A stretch of DNA of 64,000 nt, from the NCBI GenBank assembly GCA_019637875.1, contig JAHBUW010000007.1, positions 1-64,000 on the forward strand, read 5' to 3'. The number at the start of each line of letters is the position of its first letter. Positions within the stretch are counted from its first letter, which is position 1. Shown here piece by piece: positions 2,067 to 55,959 of the stretch. Below the pieces are notes generated by a model, which saw only the letters and a list, made by a program, of their open reading frames with translations, made no database searches and was not told the DNA's origin. The stretch comes from Pseudobdellovibrionaceae bacterium. Lineage in GTDB: Bacteria; Bdellovibrionota; Bdellovibrionia; Bdellovibrionales; Bdellovibrionaceae. The translations under genes and the position numbers were made by a program.

Positions 2067-2135
2067 GCGGGACTCCTTGCCTTGAACGCTTCCAGGTGAT
2101 GGAGTCTTCCTTAACTTTTTCAGAGAGGTTTGCCT

Positions 2136-3314
2136 ATGGAAAAAATCGTCGTAGTGGCCGGACAACGCACTCCTTTTGGTGCTTTTGGCGGTGGCTTGAA
2201 AGACGTCGCGGCGGCCGAGTTGACGGTGGCGGCGGGGCGCTCAACTCTCGAGCAGGCGGGCCTCAAAGCCGAAGACGTCGATCACGTCGTCATCGGGAAC
2301 GTCGCGCAGTCGGATTCGGCGGCGGCCTACCTGGCCCGTCACGTGGCTTTGAAAATGGGACTGCCGATCCACACTCCCGCGTACAACGTGAATCGCCTGT
2401 GCGGTAGCGGCTTTCAGTCGTGGGTGAACGCGGTCCAGATGATTCAAACCGGCGAAAGCCAGTGTGTGCTCGCGGGCGGCGTCGAGCAGATGTCGCAAGT
2501 TCCCTACGTCATGCGCGGCGTGCGCTTCGGCGGGATCCGGATGGGGAACGGCGAGCTTGAAGACTATCTGAACTCCTCTTTGACCGATCAGTACGCGGGC
2601 ATCCCGATGGCCATCACCGCAGAAAACCTCGGCGAAAAGTACGGCATCACGCGCGCGCAGTGCGATGAGTTCTCGTTGCTTTCGCAGTCACGTTGCAAAG
2701 AGGCCACCGCGAAAAATTATTTCGCGGCCGAGATGAAGCCCTACAAAATCGAAACGAAAAAGGGCGTCGTCGAAATCGCGAAGGACGAACATCCCAAGCC
2801 CGACGTGACTCTCGAAAAGTTGCAGGCGATGAAGTCGCTCTTCAAAAAAGACGGCCTCGTCACCGCGGCGACCGCGAGCGGTATCGTCGACGGCGCGGCG
2901 ACCTCGCTCCTGTGCTCGGAGTCCTTCGCGAAAGCAAAGGGCTTGAAGCCCCTCGCACGCATCGTGGGCTACGCCTCGGTGGGTTGCGATCCGAAGATCA
3001 TGGGCATCGGCCCCGCCGAAGCCTCGCGCCGGGCGCTCCAGCGCGCGGGCTTGAAGCTCGACCAAATGGATCTCGTCGAAGTGAACGAAGCTTTCGCCGC
3101 CCAATACCTGGCGGTCGAAAAAGAGCTGGGCCTCGACCGCAACCGCACCAATGTCAACGGTGGCGCGATCGCCATCGGTCACCCGCTGGGCGCATCCGGA
3201 ACGCGGATCATGAACCACCTGGTCTACGAACTCGCCCGCCGCGGCGGCAAATACGCCCTCGGCTCCGCCTGCATCGGCGGCGGCCAAGGCATCGCGGTCA
3301 TCATCGAAAGGTAG
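2136..3314 (+). CDS. Acetyl-CoA acetyltransferase (thiolase)
   Basis: Thiolase II condenses or cleaves acyl-CoA and acetoacetyl-CoA in fatty-acid or short-chain acyl metabolism. The 392-residue length is exactly that of the family. The nucleophile Cys is in NRLCGSGFQSW (about residue 89), the active-site His in GGAIAIGHPLGASGTR, and the second Cys in ALGSACIGGGQG. A TTG at 2130 is also in frame, but the ATG at 2136 has GAGAGG at a 7-base spacing and is preferred. The TAG stop codon (3312-3314) lies inside a REP-like repeat (3307-3334), so the repeat supplies or abuts the end of the gene. It is divergent from purD. Confidence 0.95.
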   Translation: MEKIVVVAGQRTPFGAFGGGLKDVAAAELTVAAGRSTLEQAGLKAEDVDHVVIGNVAQSDSAAAYLARHVALKMGLPIHTPAYNVNRLCGSGFQSWVNAVQMIQTGESQCVLAGGVEQMSQVPYVMRGVRFGGIRMGNGELEDYLNSSLTDQYAGIPMAITAENLGEKYGITRAQCDEFSLLSQSRCKEATAKNYFAAEMKPYKIETKKGVVEIAKDEHPKPDVTLEKLQAMKSLFKKDGLVTAATASGIVDGAATSLLCSESFAKAKGLKPLARIVGYASVGCDPKIMGIGPAEASRRALQRAGLKLDQMDLVEVNEAFAAQYLAVEKELGLDRNRTNVNGGAIAIGHPLGASGTRIMNHLVYELARRGGKYALGSACIGGGQGIAVIIER

Positions 3315-3334
3315 CCGCTCACTTGTTGAAACGC
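3307..3334 (+). repeat. REP-like element, short form
   Basis: This copy contains GGTAG followed by CCGCTCACTTGTTGAAACGC. It matches the left repeat of the transposase element at 6166-6190 base for base over 25 bases (3310-3334). The GTAG tetranucleotide at its start is the foot known from transposase-linked REPs in other bacteria. It overlaps the thiolase stop codon, and TTG codons within it are the only in-frame starts for the next ORF. Confidence 0.8.
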
Positions 3335-6165: not shown

Positions 6166-6190
6166 GGTAGCCGCTCACTTGTTGAAACGC
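6166..6190 (+). repeat. Left REP of transposase unit (short form)
   Basis: The 25-base element begins GGTAGCCGCTCACTTG and ends TTGAAACGC. It is identical to the copy at 3310-3334. Six bases further on, a second partial match (AAAAGGTAGCCGCTTCC, 6192-6208) begins, as if half of another element were present. Confidence 0.85.
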
Positions 6191-6298
6191 AGTTCGTTAC
6201 AAAAGGTAGCCGCTTCCGTTCGGAATACGGACTGAAGACCTGTTCAAAGCGAAGATAGGAGGAATTCCAGAGGTCCGGCGTTTGCTTTTGCCGATGGA

Positions 6299-6940
6299 AT
6301 GCCTAGACGAAAGTTCGAGTGCGATTCCACGGTCCCCTATCATCTCTGCGCAAGATCTAACAATCGCGACTGGTTCGCGTTGCCGACGTCGGCCGTGTGG
6401 CGAGTCCTCTGTGACTATCTCTATCTGATTCACATGGTTTTCGGAGTTAAAATTCATTCGTTCGTATTGATGAATAATCACTTTCACCTCGTCGCAAGCT
6501 TTCCGGAGGCGAATTTGAGTGCGGCGATGAATTACTTTCTTCGAGAAACAAGTCGAGTGATCGGTTATGAGTCCGACCGAATCAATCATGTCTACGGGAC
6601 TCGGATTTTCCGTTCACGAATCGGCTCATTCCACCATTTCCAGAATATCTATAAGTATGTTTATCGGAATCCGGTCAAAGCTGGGATCTATGAAAAAGTC
6701 GAAGACTATGAGTTCTCGACCTTGCATTCGTTACTTGGGCGTTCCACGCTCCCACTTCCGGTCGTGGATGACACTCTCCTCTTCGACGCGGGAACCGAGC
6801 AAATCATGGACTGGCTCAATCGGCCCACGGATGAAGAGGCATGGGAGTCGATTCGAAAGGGACTCATGCGGCGTGAGTTCAAGCTTCCACCGGTGAAGTC
6901 GAGCCGCCGGGAAAATCCACTGGAGTCGCAGCTACTTTAA
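6299..6940 (+). CDS. REP-associated tyrosine transposase (RAYT)
   Basis: The product has 213 residues and belongs to the Y1/IS200-like HUH family. RAYT-like N-terminal sequence (MPRRKFECDSTVPYHLCARSNNRDWF) is followed by the metal-binding HUH motif in LMNNHFHLV (His61, His63). The catalytic Tyr region YKYVYRNPVKAG has candidate Tyr118, 120 and 122. The NPVKAG sequence is typical of RAYTs. Such enzymes cut single-stranded REP DNA near a GTAG foot, and the flanking repeats have that foot. A clear SD next to the ATG is lacking; AGGAGG lies about 35 bases upstream. The gene looks AT-richer than its neighbours, consistent with transfer. The frame appears intact, so it is probably active. Confidence 0.88.
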   Translation: MPRRKFECDSTVPYHLCARSNNRDWFALPTSAVWRVLCDYLYLIHMVFGVKIHSFVLMNNHFHLVASFPEANLSAAMNYFLRETSRVIGYESDRINHVYGTRIFRSRIGSFHHFQNIYKYVYRNPVKAGIYEKVEDYEFSTLHSLLGRSTLPLPVVDDTLLFDAGTEQIMDWLNRPTDEEAWESIRKGLMRREFKLPPVKSSRRENPLESQLL

Positions 6941-6948
6941 GGAGCGTC

Positions 6949-6987
6949 GCGTTTCAACAAGTGAGCGGCTAGGCGCCCCCGGCTACC
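6949..6987 (-). repeat. Right REP of transposase unit (long form)
   Basis: Read on the minus strand, the element is GGTAGCC, then GGGGGCGCC, then TAGCCGCTCACTTG and TTGAAACGC. It therefore has an extra GC-rich block compared with the short form and can fold into an imperfect stem. It ends four bases before the stop codon of the HD-domain gene (6991-6993). The same long form is at 55394-55432. Confidence 0.85.
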
Positions 6988-6990
6988 TTC

Positions 6991-8310
6991 CTACAGGCGC
7001 TTCTCGACGAGGAGGCGTTCGGCGTCGCGGAATTGTTCGGGCTCGACGTAGAGGCGGTCGATGATGCGCGTGCCTTCGTACTTGTGGAAGATCTCGGTGG
7101 ATTGGTCGACCGGAGCGGGTTTGTCCCAACGGTCGTATTGGTCCACCACGTAGATCGGCGACGCTTTATCTTCGGCCGTGCCGGCGTGGTACTTCGACAA
7201 ACGCGCTTTGGAGCTCGCCCAGATAACGTGGATGCCGCGCTCTTCGAGGGCGTTCTCGATATTTTCGGGACGTTTGCTTTCTTCCGTCGAGTGAAGCTCG
7301 ACGAGCACGCGGTAGGGCTGGCGCTTCGAGATCCGCTGTGCCCACGGGTTGTCGACGCTCGCGAGATGTTCGTACAAACGATAGTCGGTGTACTTCACGT
7401 ACTCGTTGATGTCGGCCGGAACGAAGAACGTGCAGTCGGGCGAGTTCAGGTAACGGATCAGCATCTCTTCGTAGATGATGCTCTTGTGATGGAAGTAGAC
7501 CATCAAGTGCATATGGTGACGCGACAACAAGAAGTCGTCGAAGGTGTAAAGCGCGCGGCGGTTCAGCGCCATGTACACGCGACCCGCCACCTGATGCATG
7601 GTCAGATTCGAAAGCATCCAGTGCAAATCGAATTTTCCGTAGTTCGTGCCGCAGAAGTAGGAGTCGCGCTCCAGATAGTCCATGCGGTCGACGTCGAGCT
7701 CCGAACTCACGAGCTGCGACAGGATCGGACGGAAATCCAAACCGTTGTCGAAGAAGAAATCGTCGGGCGCGAGCAGCGACTTGTCGATCAGGCACGCGAC
7801 ATGCGCGGGCGCGAAATGCGGAAAGACGTGCTCCAAAGTTTTCGCGAGCGGAGAGTCGGTGATGAACTTGATCGTATAGTCTTCGTGAGTGGCGCGCGGC
7901 ACACCCTCGGGAGTCAAAAGCTCGGTCTGCGCGGCCATGCGGACGCGGTGCTCGTAAATTTTAACCTGGAGCTTGTCGACGGAGGGCATGACCTCTTCGA
8001 TGGCGTGGGACAAGGGCCCGTGACCGACATCGTGAAGCAAAGCCGCGATCTTTAAGATGTCCCGGTAGGCGGTACGCACCTTCGAGGAAGAGAAAGTATA
8101 ACTCCGGAAGATGTGATCGAACGCGAGACCCGCGATGTGGCTGACGCCGATGGAATGCAGATACCGGTTGTGGGTCGCCCCGGGAAAGCTGAACTCGGAG
8201 AAGCCGAGCTGTTTGATCATCCGCAGGCGCTGGTATTCGGGAGTATCGAGGACGGTGGTTTCGGCATCGCTCAGATGAATGGTCCCGTGGACCGGATCGC
8301 GGATTTCCAT
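6991..8310 (-). CDS. HD-domain phosphohydrolase (SAMHD1/dGTPase-like)
   Basis: The 439-residue product begins MEIRDPVHGTIHLSDAE, the typical N terminus of bacterial SAMHD1-like HD proteins. The metal-binding residues are visible: RYLHSIGV (His52), LLHDVGHGPLSH (His93-Asp94 plus His97) and the later Asp in DRMDYLERDS. Members hydrolyse dNTPs or related nucleotides. The exact substrate here cannot be read from sequence. The gene is 8 bases downstream of the LysR gene and probably co-transcribed with it, and thyA-folA lie on the other side, so a nucleotide-pool context is plausible. The 3' end abuts the right REP. Confidence 0.9.
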   Translation of the reverse strand: MEIRDPVHGTIHLSDAETTVLDTPEYQRLRMIKQLGFSEFSFPGATHNRYLHSIGVSHIAGLAFDHIFRSYTFSSSKVRTAYRDILKIAALLHDVGHGPLSHAIEEVMPSVDKLQVKIYEHRVRMAAQTELLTPEGVPRATHEDYTIKFITDSPLAKTLEHVFPHFAPAHVACLIDKSLLAPDDFFFDNGLDFRPILSQLVSSELDVDRMDYLERDSYFCGTNYGKFDLHWMLSNLTMHQVAGRVYMALNRRALYTFDDFLLSRHHMHLMVYFHHKSIIYEEMLIRYLNSPDCTFFVPADINEYVKYTDYRLYEHLASVDNPWAQRISKRQPYRVLVELHSTEESKRPENIENALEERGIHVIWASSKARLSKYHAGTAEDKASPIYVVDQYDRWDKPAPVDQSTEIFHKYEGTRIIDRLYVEPEQFRDAERLLVEKRL

Positions 8311-15732: not shown

Positions 15733-16581
15733 ATGGGTTTGCGAATTAACACGAATACGGCTTCGTTGAACGCCCAACGCGTTCTGTATAACACGAAGCT
15801 TGGCCTGGATAAGAGCATGGAAAAGCTCGCATCCGGATACCGCATCAACCGCGCTGGTGACGACGCGGCGGGCTTGGCGATCTCGGAGAACCTCCGGGCG
15901 CAAATCCGCGGTCTGAAGCAAGCGGCACGTAACGCGAACGACGGCATCTCGCTGGTTCAGGTTGCGGAAGGTGCGATGAACGAGGTCTCTTCGATCCTGA
16001 TCCGTCTGCGGGAACTTTCAGTTCAAGCCGCTTCGGATACCATCGGACCGGTCGAGCGCCAGTTCCTCAACGTCGAATATGATCAACTGATTTCGGAGAT
16101 CGACCGTATCGCCGACGCGACGGAATTCAACGGCACTCAGCTGTTGGCCGGAGTGGGCGCGATCATGGATTTCCAAGTCGGTATCCGTAACAACCCCGAA
16201 ATCGACCGTATCTCTTTCGACTCGTCGAAGGCGGATGCGAACTCGGCGGCCCTGGGCGTGAACCTCACGTCGGTCGCGGACAAAGCCTCGGCGCAAAACG
16301 CGCTGTCGGCGGTCGATACCGCACTCTCGAGCGTTTCGGCGATGCGCGCGGACTTCGGTGCCTTGCAGAACCGTCTGCAAACCACGGTCTCGAACATCAA
16401 CAACTCGATCGAGAACATGTCCGCCGCGAACTCACGGGTCCGCGATGTGGATGTCGCTGAAGAAACCGCCGAGATGACTCGTCAGAACATCTTGTTGCAA
16501 GCGGGTTCTTCGGTCCTGGCCCAAGCGAATCAGTCCGCGAACGTTGCACTGAGCCTTCTGAATAAGACTTTCCAAGGTTAA
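15733..16581 (+). CDS. fliC: Flagellin
   Basis: This is a structural protein of the flagellar filament, 282 residues and compact (D0/D1 only). The N terminus MGLRINTNTASLNAQ, the conserved block DDAAGLAISENLRAQIRGL, and the C-terminal AEMTRQNILLQAGSSVLAQAN are canonical. The frame extends upstream to 15676, but ATG 15733 has GGAGGAGG seven bases before it and matches the family start. It is about 60 percent similar by eye to the second flagellin at 19952. Bdellovibrionota carry several flagellins; which position in the filament this one has is not known. Confidence 0.95.
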   Translation: MGLRINTNTASLNAQRVLYNTKLGLDKSMEKLASGYRINRAGDDAAGLAISENLRAQIRGLKQAARNANDGISLVQVAEGAMNEVSSILIRLRELSVQAASDTIGPVERQFLNVEYDQLISEIDRIADATEFNGTQLLAGVGAIMDFQVGIRNNPEIDRISFDSSKADANSAALGVNLTSVADKASAQNALSAVDTALSSVSAMRADFGALQNRLQTTVSNINNSIENMSAANSRVRDVDVAEETAEMTRQNILLQAGSSVLAQANQSANVALSLLNKTFQG

Positions 16582-19951: not shown

Positions 19952-20785
19952 ATGGGATTAAGAATTGCGACGAACGTGATGTCATTGAATGCGCAGAAGA
20001 GCTTGGGTGGTACGAACCGCGCCATGGCGACCTCCATGGAGCGACTCGCTTCCGGGTTCCGCATCAACAAGGCCGCCGACGATGCGGCCGGACTCGCGAT
20101 CAGCGAAAACCTACGTGCCTTGACCCGCGGTCTACGCCAAGCCAACCGTAACGCGAACGACGGTATCTCGCTCGTTCAGGTGGCGGAAGGTTCGCTCAAC
20201 GAAACTTCGAATATGTTGATTCGCCTGCGGGAACTCGCGGTCCAGTCCTCTTCGGATACGATTGGCGATACGGAACGTAAGTTCCTCGATGTGGAATACC
20301 AACAGCTCAAGTCCGAGATTCAGCGTATCACCGAGTCGACCGAGTTTAACGGATACGATCTGCTGAATGGATCGGGCGGCGTGATCGACATTCAAGTCGG
20401 CGTCCATAACGATCCGTTTAAGGATCGGATCTCGTTCAATGCTTCGGCGGCGAACGCTTCACTCGAAGCCTTGGGCCTGGTCGCCGAGACCATCGCTTCC
20501 AAGCAAGGGGCGCAGATGAGCCTCGATGTCGTGGATAGCGCGCTGACTTCGGTCAACGCGATTCGCGCGAACTTCGGTGCCCTGCAAAACCGTCTGGTTT
20601 CGACATCACAGAACTTGCTTGTCGCCGATGAGAATTTCTCGGCCGCGAACTCGCGGATTCGTGATGCCGATATTGCCGCCGAAACGGCCGAGATGACCCG
20701 GAACAACATCATGCTGCAGGCGGGGATTTCGGTTCTCGGCCAAGCGAACAACGCCCAGCAAATGGCCTTGAAGCTGCTGAGCTGA
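19952..20785 (+). CDS. fliC: Flagellin (second copy)
   Basis: The 277-residue flagellin starts MGLRIATNVMSLNAQ and has the DDAAGLAISENLRALTRGL block. The C-terminal block AEMTRNNIMLQAGISVLGQAN is typical of the D0 domain. The RBS AAGGAAGGGG lies before ATG 19952; the frame open to 19892 is an untranslated leader. It is a paralogue of the flagellin at 15733, separated from it by the fibre/lipoprotein pair on the opposite strand. A strong terminator follows. Confidence 0.95.
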   Translation: MGLRIATNVMSLNAQKSLGGTNRAMATSMERLASGFRINKAADDAAGLAISENLRALTRGLRQANRNANDGISLVQVAEGSLNETSNMLIRLRELAVQSSSDTIGDTERKFLDVEYQQLKSEIQRITESTEFNGYDLLNGSGGVIDIQVGVHNDPFKDRISFNASAANASLEALGLVAETIASKQGAQMSLDVVDSALTSVNAIRANFGALQNRLVSTSQNLLVADENFSAANSRIRDADIAAETAEMTRNNIMLQAGISVLGQANNAQQMALKLLS

Positions 20786-30936: not shown

Positions 30937-31040
30937 AAGGTAGCTTCTACTTTCCAGAAAGTACCTGCTACTTTCCGAAAGGTACCACGTACCGCGTGCG
31001 GTACCATCTACCCTGCGAAGCAGGGTAGATGGTACCTTTC
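30934..31040. repeat. Cluster of palindromes with GGTA(C/G)C core
   Basis: At least four palindromes lie in about 105 bases. TAGAAG/CTTCTA (30934-30949) includes the stop of the previous gene. TACTTTC/GAAAGTA (30948-30963) is followed by GAAAGTA/TACTTTC (30957-30975). GTACCGC/GCGGTAC is at 30989-31004. A perfect 17-bp stem with a three-base loop is at 31000-31036. GAAAGGTACC (30977-30986) and GGTACCTTTC (31031-31040) form an outer frame. The GGTACC/CCTTT ends match the hairpin at 54956-55029. It resembles a BIME-like cluster. Confidence 0.75.
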
Positions 31041-53603: not shown

Positions 53604-54914
53604 ATGAAATTGGCACTGCGTGGACTGGCGTTGGGATTGGCTTTGACGACCGCGGCTTGCAGCGGCGGTGGTGGTGGAGGCGGCGGTTCGAGTTCGACTC
53701 GCAAAGGCACGGGTTATCTGAAGGTGGATTTGCCTCAGATGACGGGCGCGAGCTCGGCGGTCGTGGCTTCGTCGATCGGCACGATGAGTTTGCCATGGGC
53801 GGAGTCGGCGTCGTCGGGAACTCCTGCTCTGACCCTGAAGCAACTGGTGACCAATACGAACCAAGGTGAGAACTGCGTCGGGATCGTGGAAAGCATTCCC
53901 TTCTTGGTCTGCATGGTGGAATCCATGGGGATCAATAAGCCCGGAACTTATTCCGGAACCCTCGGCGGTGTGACCTTGACGGCGGTCGTGGCCGAACTTT
54001 CCGCCGACCCGAATGGTTATGACATCGAAGCCGTGGTTACAAAAAGCGGGAAAGACATTTTTAACTACAAAGCAAACACCGCGGGAACCAAAGGTGAGAT
54101 CCGCTACGAGCTGATCGAGTTCTTCGACGTCATGGGCGTTCCGGCGAACGCGGACGAAGTGCAAGAGCGGGCGAATATCGTGAAGTGGGATAACACGGAT
54201 TCCGCAAATGCCATTGTCGAGACCTGGGAAGAGTACCACTCTGTCTATATGAACACCACCACGACGAAATGGGTCGCTCATATGAAGGCTCTCGTCGATG
54301 AGGACAATGGGATCGCCGATATCGTGCAGAAGCAGTCTTCGCATGGCTATTACAGCGCCATTACCGAGTCGCGTTTGCGTACGACGATTTTCCAAACTCG
54401 GTTCAAGGGATCGCACATCATCGAGGCTTTTGCGGTCTGCGACGAAGGGGGCGCCACCGCCGGGGCCGTCGTTTTGGGCACGAACTGTTGGGACTTCGAC
54501 ACGAATACGGGCGTCGACAATCCGTCGAGTCCCACGCGCAATTGGCGCATGGGGAACCCCGCGGAAACCGGATTCAGTGGCTCCGCTCCGGGAGTCCTGG
54601 TCGGTGGAACATGGAACGACACCTCGGGATTCTCGTTATTGGAGTCGAAGACTCTGACCCCGTCGATACCCGTCACCAGCGATCCGAATACGCCCGGGAA
54701 TCTCGTGGACGGAAATCAAACTTGGTCCAGCACGGCGTTTGCGGATAGCACATTGACGGACCTCGTCTCCGCTCAACGTGGCGGAAGTCATGCCTTCACT
54801 TTGTCGGTGGGAACGACGCAATCGGGAGAGACCGGAAATTCCGTCGCGAAGCTCGTGCAAGATGTCCAAACCATGTCCTTCGCAACAATGGACGCACTGA
54901 TCAGCGGCAAGTAA
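53604..54914 (+). CDS. Lipoprotein with poly-Gly linker, unknown
   Basis: The product has 436 residues. The lipobox is TAAC (Cys21), followed by a run of eight Gly and three Ser as a linker, then a large globular region rich in Thr, Asn and Gly. Two Cys in the N-terminal third (ENCVG and FLVCM) and two later (AVCDE and TNCWD) could pair. The RBS AAGGAGGACACTG is very strong. No family is recognised. The gene ends three bases before a REP-like element (54918). Confidence 0.72.
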   Translation: MKLALRGLALGLALTTAACSGGGGGGGGSSSTRKGTGYLKVDLPQMTGASSAVVASSIGTMSLPWAESASSGTPALTLKQLVTNTNQGENCVGIVESIPFLVCMVESMGINKPGTYSGTLGGVTLTAVVAELSADPNGYDIEAVVTKSGKDIFNYKANTAGTKGEIRYELIEFFDVMGVPANADEVQERANIVKWDNTDSANAIVETWEEYHSVYMNTTTTKWVAHMKALVDEDNGIADIVQKQSSHGYYSAITESRLRTTIFQTRFKGSHIIEAFAVCDEGGATAGAVVLGTNCWDFDTNTGVDNPSSPTRNWRMGNPAETGFSGSAPGVLVGGTWNDTSGFSLLESKTLTPSIPVTSDPNTPGNLVDGNQTWSSTAFADSTLTDLVSAQRGGSHAFTLSVGTTQSGETGNSVAKLVQDVQTMSFATMDALISGK

Positions 54915-54917
54915 GTA

Positions 54918-54944
54918 AAGGTCGCCGCTCACGTCTTGAAACGC
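54918..54944 (+). repeat. REP-like element, diverged short form
   Basis: AAAGGTCGCCGCTCACGTC and TTGAAACGC match the short REP except for GTAG becoming GTCG and one change in the central tract. It lies directly after the stop of the preceding lipoprotein gene and points toward the hairpin at 54956 and the DUF167 gene. Confidence 0.75.
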
Positions 54945-54955
54945 GTCGCATGACG

Positions 54956-55029
54956 AAAGGTACCTTCTTCCTATTGGTTTCGCAGGTGCGCCACTGGCCG
55001 TGCGCAACCAATAGGAAGAAGGTACCTTT
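54956..55029. repeat. Long hairpin with 24-bp perfect stem
   Basis: The arms 54956-54979 and 55006-55029 are exact reverse complements. Each begins or ends with the AAAGGTACC / GGTACCTTT core, and the loop is 26 bases. It is followed by TTTT, so it can terminate transcription arriving from the plus-strand lipoprotein gene. The internal sequence (CTTCTTCC, GTTTCGCA) resembles that of the hairpin at 55323. Confidence 0.9.
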
Positions 55030-55030
55030 T

Positions 55031-55318
55031 TTATTCCAGAGCCGCGCGGATGGCGCTTTCGTCCAGCGACGCGGGGAGAGCCAAGCTTTTCTGCTTCGAC
55101 GTCGCGCCGGCGACGATTTCCAGGTCTGCTTGGCGGACGCCCAGACGCTTCGCTAGAAAGCGCACGAGCTCTTCGTTCGCGGCGCCATCGACGGGCGGAG
55201 CCTTCACTTTGATCTTCAGCCGATCGCCGTGAACACCCACGATTTCATTATTGGAAGCTTGAGGCTGAATTTGCACGGCGAGCACCCAGCCGCGTTTCGT
55301 CGATTTCAGGAAGGGCAT
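55031..55318 (-). CDS. DUF167/YggU family protein
   Basis: The 95-residue protein has the family features VQIQPQASNNEIVGVHGDRLKIKVKAPPVDGAANEEL (in part) and FLAKRLGV. The biochemical role is unknown; the fold is a small alpha/beta domain. It is the last gene of the maf-yggS-proC-divIVA-yggU order known from other bacteria. It is cut off from divIVA by a long hairpin and a REP, and its ATG lies just beyond the hairpin, with no clear SD. Confidence 0.85.
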   Translation of the reverse strand: MPFLKSTKRGWVLAVQIQPQASNNEIVGVHGDRLKIKVKAPPVDGAANEELVRFLAKRLGVRQADLEIVAGATSKQKSLALPASLDESAIRAALE

Positions 55319-55322
55319 ACGC

Positions 55323-55382
55323 AAAGGTAGCTTCTTCCCGATAGTTTCGCACCTGCGAAACTATCGGGAAGAAGCTACCTTT
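55323..55382. repeat. Long hairpin with 29-bp perfect stem
   Basis: The arms 55323-55351 and 55354-55382 are exact reverse complements with a 2-base loop. The ends are AAAGGTAGC / GCTACCTTT, the same core as the hairpin at 54956. It lies directly upstream of the DUF167 gene and next to the REP at 55394. Such a stem can extrude as a cruciform and could block the DUF167 transcript or RBS. Confidence 0.92.
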
Positions 55383-55393
55383 TGTCATGCGAC

Positions 55394-55432
55394 GCGTTTC
55401 AAGAAGTAAGCGGCTGGGCGCCCCCGGCTACC
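55394..55432 (-). repeat. REP-like element, long form
   Basis: The minus strand reads GGTAGCC, GGGGGCGCC, CAGCCGCTTACTTC and TTGAAACGC. It differs by a few bases from the right REP at 6949. The divIVA stop codon (55435-55437) lies two bases beyond it. Confidence 0.85.
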
Positions 55433-55434
55433 TT

Positions 55435-55959
55435 TTACCCGGCGGACAGAGGCGAGATTTCGGTGATCTTGGTTTCGTCGATGCTCGCGCGGGGGAGGCC
55501 GAAGGCGGGTTGAGTCTTTTCGCCCTGCTCGAGGATCGTGAGGTGCGCTTGGACCAGGCCCTTGAGGTTTGCTTCGAACTGCAGGCGCGCGCGTTTCAGA
55601 TCCGAGATTTCGCCGTAGATCTTCTTCAGCGAGTCACGTGAGTCACGGGTGATGATTTCGGCTTTCTGTTGGGCGTCGGCGATGATGAGTTTCGCTTCGC
55701 GCTCGGCGTCTACGCGCAAGCGCTCGGACATTTGCGATGCGGTTTGGATGGTCGATTGCAACAGACGATCGCGCTCGCGGGTTTCGGCGAAGGCGATTTC
55801 TTTTTCGCGAACGGCCTCACGCAGTTGGTTGCGTTCGAGGACCAGGGCTTCCATTTCCGTGGCGACGATTTGCAGGAATTCGATCACTTCTTCTTCGTTC
55901 AGTCCGAACATGCTGCGACCGAATTGGCGATGACGGATGTCGATCGGCGTCAGTTTCAT
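55435..55959 (-). CDS. divIVA: DivIVA-domain protein
   Basis: The 174-residue product starts MKLTPIDIRHRQFGRSMFGLNEEEVIEFL, the DivIVA membrane-targeting motif. A coiled coil from about 30 to 140 follows, and the C terminus is variable. It probably binds curved membrane and organises poles or division. Its place between proC and yggU fits the maf/yggS operon. AAGGAGGAAGCC precedes the ATG. Confidence 0.93.
   Translation of the reverse strand: MKLTPIDIRHRQFGRSMFGLNEEEVIEFLQIVATEMEALVLERNQLREAVREKEIAFAETRERDRLLQSTIQTASQMSERLRVDAEREAKLIIADAQQKAEIITRDSRDSLKKIYGEISDLKRARLQFEANLKGLVQAHLTILEQGEKTQPAFGLPRASIDETKITEISPLSAG

Follow-up and report, generated by a model that had tools for sequence, protein, structure and literature searches.

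A gene for a RAYT-like Y1/HUH transposase lies at 6299-6940 in the window, by which we mean the whole stretch of 64,000 nucleotides from a Pseudobdellovibrionaceae bacterium that was analysed here. On its two sides stand oppositely oriented copies of a short repeat (family 1) that share 23 identical nt, as expected from the initial annotation, which had placed a RAYT inside a matched inverted REP pair. The features discussed below are as follows.

3310-3334, plus strand: single REP that supplies, with its own TAG, the stop of a thiolase gene (2130-3314, plus strand), followed by a terminator-like hairpin
6166-6190, plus strand: left REP of the RAYT pair, short form, foot outward
6299-6940, plus strand: RAYT-like Y1/HUH transposase gene, an ORF of 213 aa with H61-F-H63, Y120 (the catalytic Tyr) and N124
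6949-6987, minus strand: right REP of the RAYT pair, long form, with 3 nt between its outer end and the stop of an HD-domain gene (6991-8310, minus strand)
30977-31040: array of a second repeat family (GGTACCACGTACCGC), cognate to a RAYT elsewhere in the genome (C8:177521-178144)
54920-54944, plus strand: short-form REP of the GGTCGCC variant, 5 nt past the stop of a 436-aa ORF ending at 54914
54956-55029: terminator-like hairpin with 29-nt arms, beginning GGTACCTTCTTCC, beside a REP and related to the hairpin at 55323-55382
55323-55382: perfect hairpin with 29-nt arms, beginning GGTAGCTTCTTCC, beside a REP
55394-55432, minus strand: REP, long form, directly after the stop of a DivIVA-domain gene (55435-55959, minus strand)

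The 213-aa frame matches the Pfam family Y1_Tnp (26.6 bits; cut-off 23) and aligns with the E. coli TnpA-REP protein 4er8 (E = 2.6e-8), with H61/H63, Y120 and N124 corresponding to H59/H61, Y115 and N119. A PDB fold search with an AlphaFold model (mean pLDDT 88.2) returned 4er8 at the top, followed by the IS608, IS200 and ISDra2 transposases. The NCBIfam model for REP-associated tyrosine transposases (NF047646, REP_Tyr_transpos) scored 55.7 bits (E = 4.9e-15), under its 80-bit threshold, which is a naming cut-off of the model and stands for no biochemical trait. The catalytic alignment and the fold match bear out the annotated HUH tyrosine transposase as a RAYT-like enzyme. Named database matches of the protein were mostly from Bdellovibrionota, consistent with the lineage part of the proposed "predator-like lineage".

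Two RAYTs with their own repeat families at gene ends

Copies of family 1 are found well beyond the window, and neither outcome that the annotation had named as refuting, absence of copies elsewhere or a copy number at chance level, was observed. Genome-wide pattern searches with the 22-nt core AGCCGCTCACTTGTTGAAACGC at up to 3 mismatches gave 31 matches in the 3.98-Mb genome (15 on the plus and 16 on the minus strand), and the reversed pattern gave none. The core had 0 matches across 59 relatives, a set containing no second genome of the window's genus. The annotation had listed solo copies at 3307, 54918 and 55394; all three repeats are present, at 3310-3334, 54920-54944 and 55394-55432, but the latter two are inverted relative to each other and enclose a DUF167/YggU gene. 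The 39-nt long form differs from the short form by 14 extra bases (CGGGGGCGCCTAGC) and, because these sit between direct repeats (TAGCC...TAGCC), the two forms could interconvert by slippage.

Close head-to-head pairs have their feet outward in 11 of 11 cases, with spacers of 3-758 nt, the widest being the RAYT pair itself. For lone repeats, shuffled versions folded just as well (short forms, z = -0.8 and -1.4; long form, z = +1.8), leaving a self-hairpin of the single copy unsupported, whereas a pair with a 3-nt spacer forms a near-perfect hairpin (z = -9.5). The hairpin usual for REPs therefore appears weak in family 1, with a strong one only in close pairs.

The inverted pair at 54920-55432 could at first sight be read as a gene cassette. 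The bracketed DUF167/YggU gene adjoins DivIVA and proC by domain matches, and DUF167/YggU beside DivIVA and proC is a common neighbourhood. For this reason, and because each repeat is tied to the stop codon of the flanking gene, we ruled the cassette reading out. The two related hairpins between these repeats may act as terminators in both directions or represent a third family of repeats.

Proximity to stop codons is a general property of the family, whose copies are dispersed and extragenic, in line with the clustering at intergenic sites that had been put forward as a check. In 26 of the 31 copies the foot begins no more than 5 nt from a stop codon, counting same-strand reading frames of at least 139 codons rather than called genes; random sites, drawn from this window only, fell within 10 nt of a stop in 4% of cases. 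The repeat's own TAG supplies the stop codon in 8 of the 26, and several copies separate a stop codon from the terminator, including on either side of convergent genes. Contact with stop codons, sometimes through a TAG from the repeat itself, is known for GTAG REPs (PMC3733652), and the contact in family 1 is strong yet not new in kind.

A second RAYT, about 55-56% identical to the first, is encoded at C8:177521-178144. The repeats that bracket it belong to another, palindromic family, GGTACCACGTACCGC, which has 50 matches at no more than 1 mismatch; 23 of 36 ends of its arrays meet stop codons. The genome holds no near-identical transposase copies, only these two RAYTs and one weak distant match, a Y1_Tnp-like frame at G000:C3:18925-19059 (L033) that scores 19.2 bits, below the cut-off of 23. 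Enzyme class, flanking copies and a dispersed private family of 31 copies therefore identify the locus as a REP/RAYT pair, as annotated, although it is one of two in the genome.

Other repeats are also present. Further palindromic units (beginning GGTAGCATCTACTTTCC and GGTACCATCTACCCTGC) are abundant and form mosaics between convergent genes (L031, 201-270; L093-L121). Within the window, 15793-16561 and 20012-20780 are about 70% alike and 4219 bases apart, and are probably duplicated genes.

RAYT loci across Bdellovibrionota and their relation to known systems

Among 60 genomes from the family and order, one of them the window's own, 37 encode a RAYT homologue. At 47 of 48 Bdellovibrionota RAYT loci the flanks contain an inverted repeat that outscores every shuffled control (median score 25, against a control median of 8 and maximum of 13). 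These repeats are largely private to each locus, and their distances show a weak correlation with those of the proteins (Mantel test, r = 0.20, p = 0.0015). Across 47 transposases the HUH motif, Tyr and Asn do not vary; the annotation's refuting condition, catalytic residues that fail to align with the family, did not hold.

The ends of 47 related RAYT loci share the motif AAA-GGT[A/G/T][C/G]C-N-...-C-TTTT with a tail like GC-nnn-GCGTCA. The head-motif frequencies are partly biased, since rows were anchored on positions 1-3, 6 and 13 and on the runs of A and T; positions 4, 5 and 8-12 and the tail played no part in anchoring. Head positions 4 and 10 pair in 93% of cases against 74% expected, and positions 6 and 8 in 78% against 50%, with changes on both sides and p-values that ignore relatedness. 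The initial annotation had taken GTAG as the foot that the enzyme recognises. Family 1 does start with GGTAG, but the head differs among relatives and only 11% of ends carry G at the final GTAG position, which speaks against GTAG as a conserved foot of the Bdellovibrionota family. Moreover, the GTAG-recognition residues of the E. coli enzyme (W94, Q95, E100, H101 and R104, as listed in PMC6006769) lack conservation in this family and are replaced by Y, G, R, S and G in the window's RAYT when mapped through the 4er8 alignment.

The enzyme shares its fold, and by homology its chemistry, with IS200/IS605 transposases such as those of IS608 and ISDra2. IS200/IS605 ends are subterminal hairpins on one strand; here, by contrast, the ends are inverted and near-identical transposase copies are absent. 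Parallels are also found in the REPtron/TnpA-REP systems of E. coli, Pseudomonas and Stenotrophomonas (PMC2817692, PMC3116915, PMC8266576), which likewise combine a Y1/HUH enzyme that has these catalytic residues, a gene between inverted repeats, a dispersed family for each RAYT, inverted pairs and copies at gene 3' ends. Unlike them, the loci described here have a GGT[A/G/T][C/G]C head across relatives in place of GTAG, replaced GTAG-contact residues, no convincing hairpin in the lone repeat and copy numbers in the tens. That each RAYT has its own REP family was already known (PMC6006769).

TIRtrons/TIRYTs (PMC3733652) also have a RAYT-like gene between long inverted repeats of a moderately abundant family, although the GGGGWSAS motif boxed in that paper is not the common motif here. 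We conclude that the window's pair is a RAYT/REP system whose head is divergent and whose nearest counterparts are these TIRtrons. The main text of PMC3733652 does not mention Bdellovibrio, and we found no paper on REP/RAYT in Bdellovibrio in the open-access literature searched.

Repeat types at orthologous addresses in a related genus

We compared repeat addresses in g7, a different genus of the same family, matching orthologous addresses through their outer flanks; the site comparison covered windows carrying typed repeats in G033, G036 and G006 rather than whole genomes. In four g7 genomes (G036, G033, G006 and G024) a RAYT cassette lies between the same junctions 3' of a flagellin gene, with repeat-head distances of 752 bp (G036 and G033), 604 bp (G006) and 931 bp (G024). 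Three different cassettes occupy this address. The RAYT proteins of G036 and G033 are 98% identical, and to these the G006 protein is 53-54% and the G024 protein 56% identical. The G006 gene is broken, its N-terminal part being absent, and the G024 cassette is in the opposite orientation. Flanks of G036 and G006 are nevertheless 96-98% identical over 400 bp, right up to the repeats. As divergence of an inherited gene would hardly leave such flanks beside 53% identical proteins, the cassette was most likely exchanged at this one address.

Dispersed copies differ between the same genomes. Type C, the repeat of the G036/G033 RAYT, has 18 copies each in G036 and G033, of which 15-16 addresses are common to both, 4 copies in G006 and none in G024 or G030. 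Where both G036 and G006 carry typed repeats, 15 arms are of the same type and 9 differ; the 12 type-C arms of G036 with a typed G006 partner face 3 arms of type C, 7 of type A and 2 of type B, type A being the one that flanks G006's own RAYT. Repeat-body identity is 0.92 at same-type and 0.54 at changed-type addresses, as in the example of L135/L191 (CTCCCCAAAAGGTGCCTGGTGACTTTTTACACCTACACCGCATCAT versus CTCCCCAAAAGGTGCCTGGTTGTTTTTTCTGGCAATAGCGCATCAT), whereas median identity of the 400-bp flanks (G036 versus G006) is 91.0% at unchanged and 91.9% at changed addresses. One address, L133, holds type C in G036 and G033, type B in G006 and a fourth type in G024. Sequence comparison thus indicates that repeats in this genus are replaced in place at the same address.

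The comparison for empty sites suggested in the annotation, made here in g7, revealed some addresses that are empty or displaced in G006 (L132, L137 and the left arm of L131). At the address of L136, the G006 locus L179 carries about 1 kb of extra coding-like sequence between the repeat arms that is absent from G036.

Proposed replacement in place by the resident RAYT, and its alternatives

Our main reading, to which we assign a probability of roughly 0.85, is that each RAYT works with a cognate repeat family and that the sites at stop codons are long-kept addresses whose repeats are replaced by the type of the resident RAYT. By analogy with related enzymes, the RAYT would most likely bind one strand of the single-stranded repeat at its AGGTAGCC head. 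As with E. coli TnpA-REP, cleavage and rejoining would then take place at the outer end of the repeat, and the enzyme would act in trans on copies without a transposase gene. Addresses would persist while the resident repeat is swapped for the type of the resident RAYT, with the RAYT as the presumed cause of replacement; the same rewriting would be expected in the window's genus, to judge from g7. Points against this reading are the poor folding of the single repeat, the NCBIfam score below threshold and the broken N-terminus of the RAYT at the G006 address. A more specific version, that repeat sites throughout Bdellovibrionota are lasting addresses and that arrival of a new cassette at the RAYT address leads to chromosome-wide rewriting in place, by the enzyme or by templated conversion, and not to spread to new sites, is a tentative proposal that we hold at somewhat below even odds.

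The repeats might instead be ordinary host terminators or 3'-UTR elements, with a transposase that happened to insert beside two copies. Copies between stop codons and terminator hairpins, and the strong hairpins of close pairs (z = -9.5), would fit such a role. It is very improbable, however, given that at 47 of 48 RAYT loci a repeat of the locus's own brackets the gene, that each RAYT of this genome has a separate family, and that plain terminators are not expected to share a private sequence such as the core, found in 0 of 59 relatives. Import of the changed addresses together with their flanks from other strains by homologous recombination is a stronger candidate, though still an unlikely one. 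Recombination is frequent among bacteria and one flank of L135/L191 is only 76% identical, but flank medians at changed and unchanged addresses are alike (91.9% and 91.0%) and the flanks of the RAYT address hold 96-98% identity up to the repeats.

Independent reinsertion into a reusable target after loss, without conversion, could also leave different types at one address, and we consider it a real if doubtful contender. IS200/IS605 elements regenerate their target on leaving and can use it again; the address L132/L173 has no repeat in G006, and the G024 RAYT is reversed. On the other hand, nine arms, including both L143 arms and both ends of the RAYT cassette, keep their junctions within a few bases, and at some addresses (L135, L143) the site-specific inner tail is retained as well.

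A related phenomenon is the orthoswitch described by Nunvar (PMC3686654), in which syntenic RAYTs are flanked by different REP classes and whose mechanism was left open in 2013. The g7 flagellin address resembles it in that the repeats around the RAYT at one address differ in type between related genomes. In the orthoswitch model, as given there, older copies remain and degenerate as newer ones spread, whereas here dispersed copies appear to be replaced in place and the RAYT itself exchanged. In the passages of the literature examined, we did not find in-place replacement of dispersed copies described. Higgins et al. had already asked in 1988 whether REPs evolve by gene conversion, judging from the title cited in PMC3116915. 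Complete g7 genomes, mostly about 85-98% identical near the sites, with switched repeat types and a swapped cassette, offer a direct test system for REP gene conversion and the orthoswitch. In the general picture stated in PMC8049555, RAYT genes are only vertically inherited; exchange of the cassette calls this into question, at least in this lineage.
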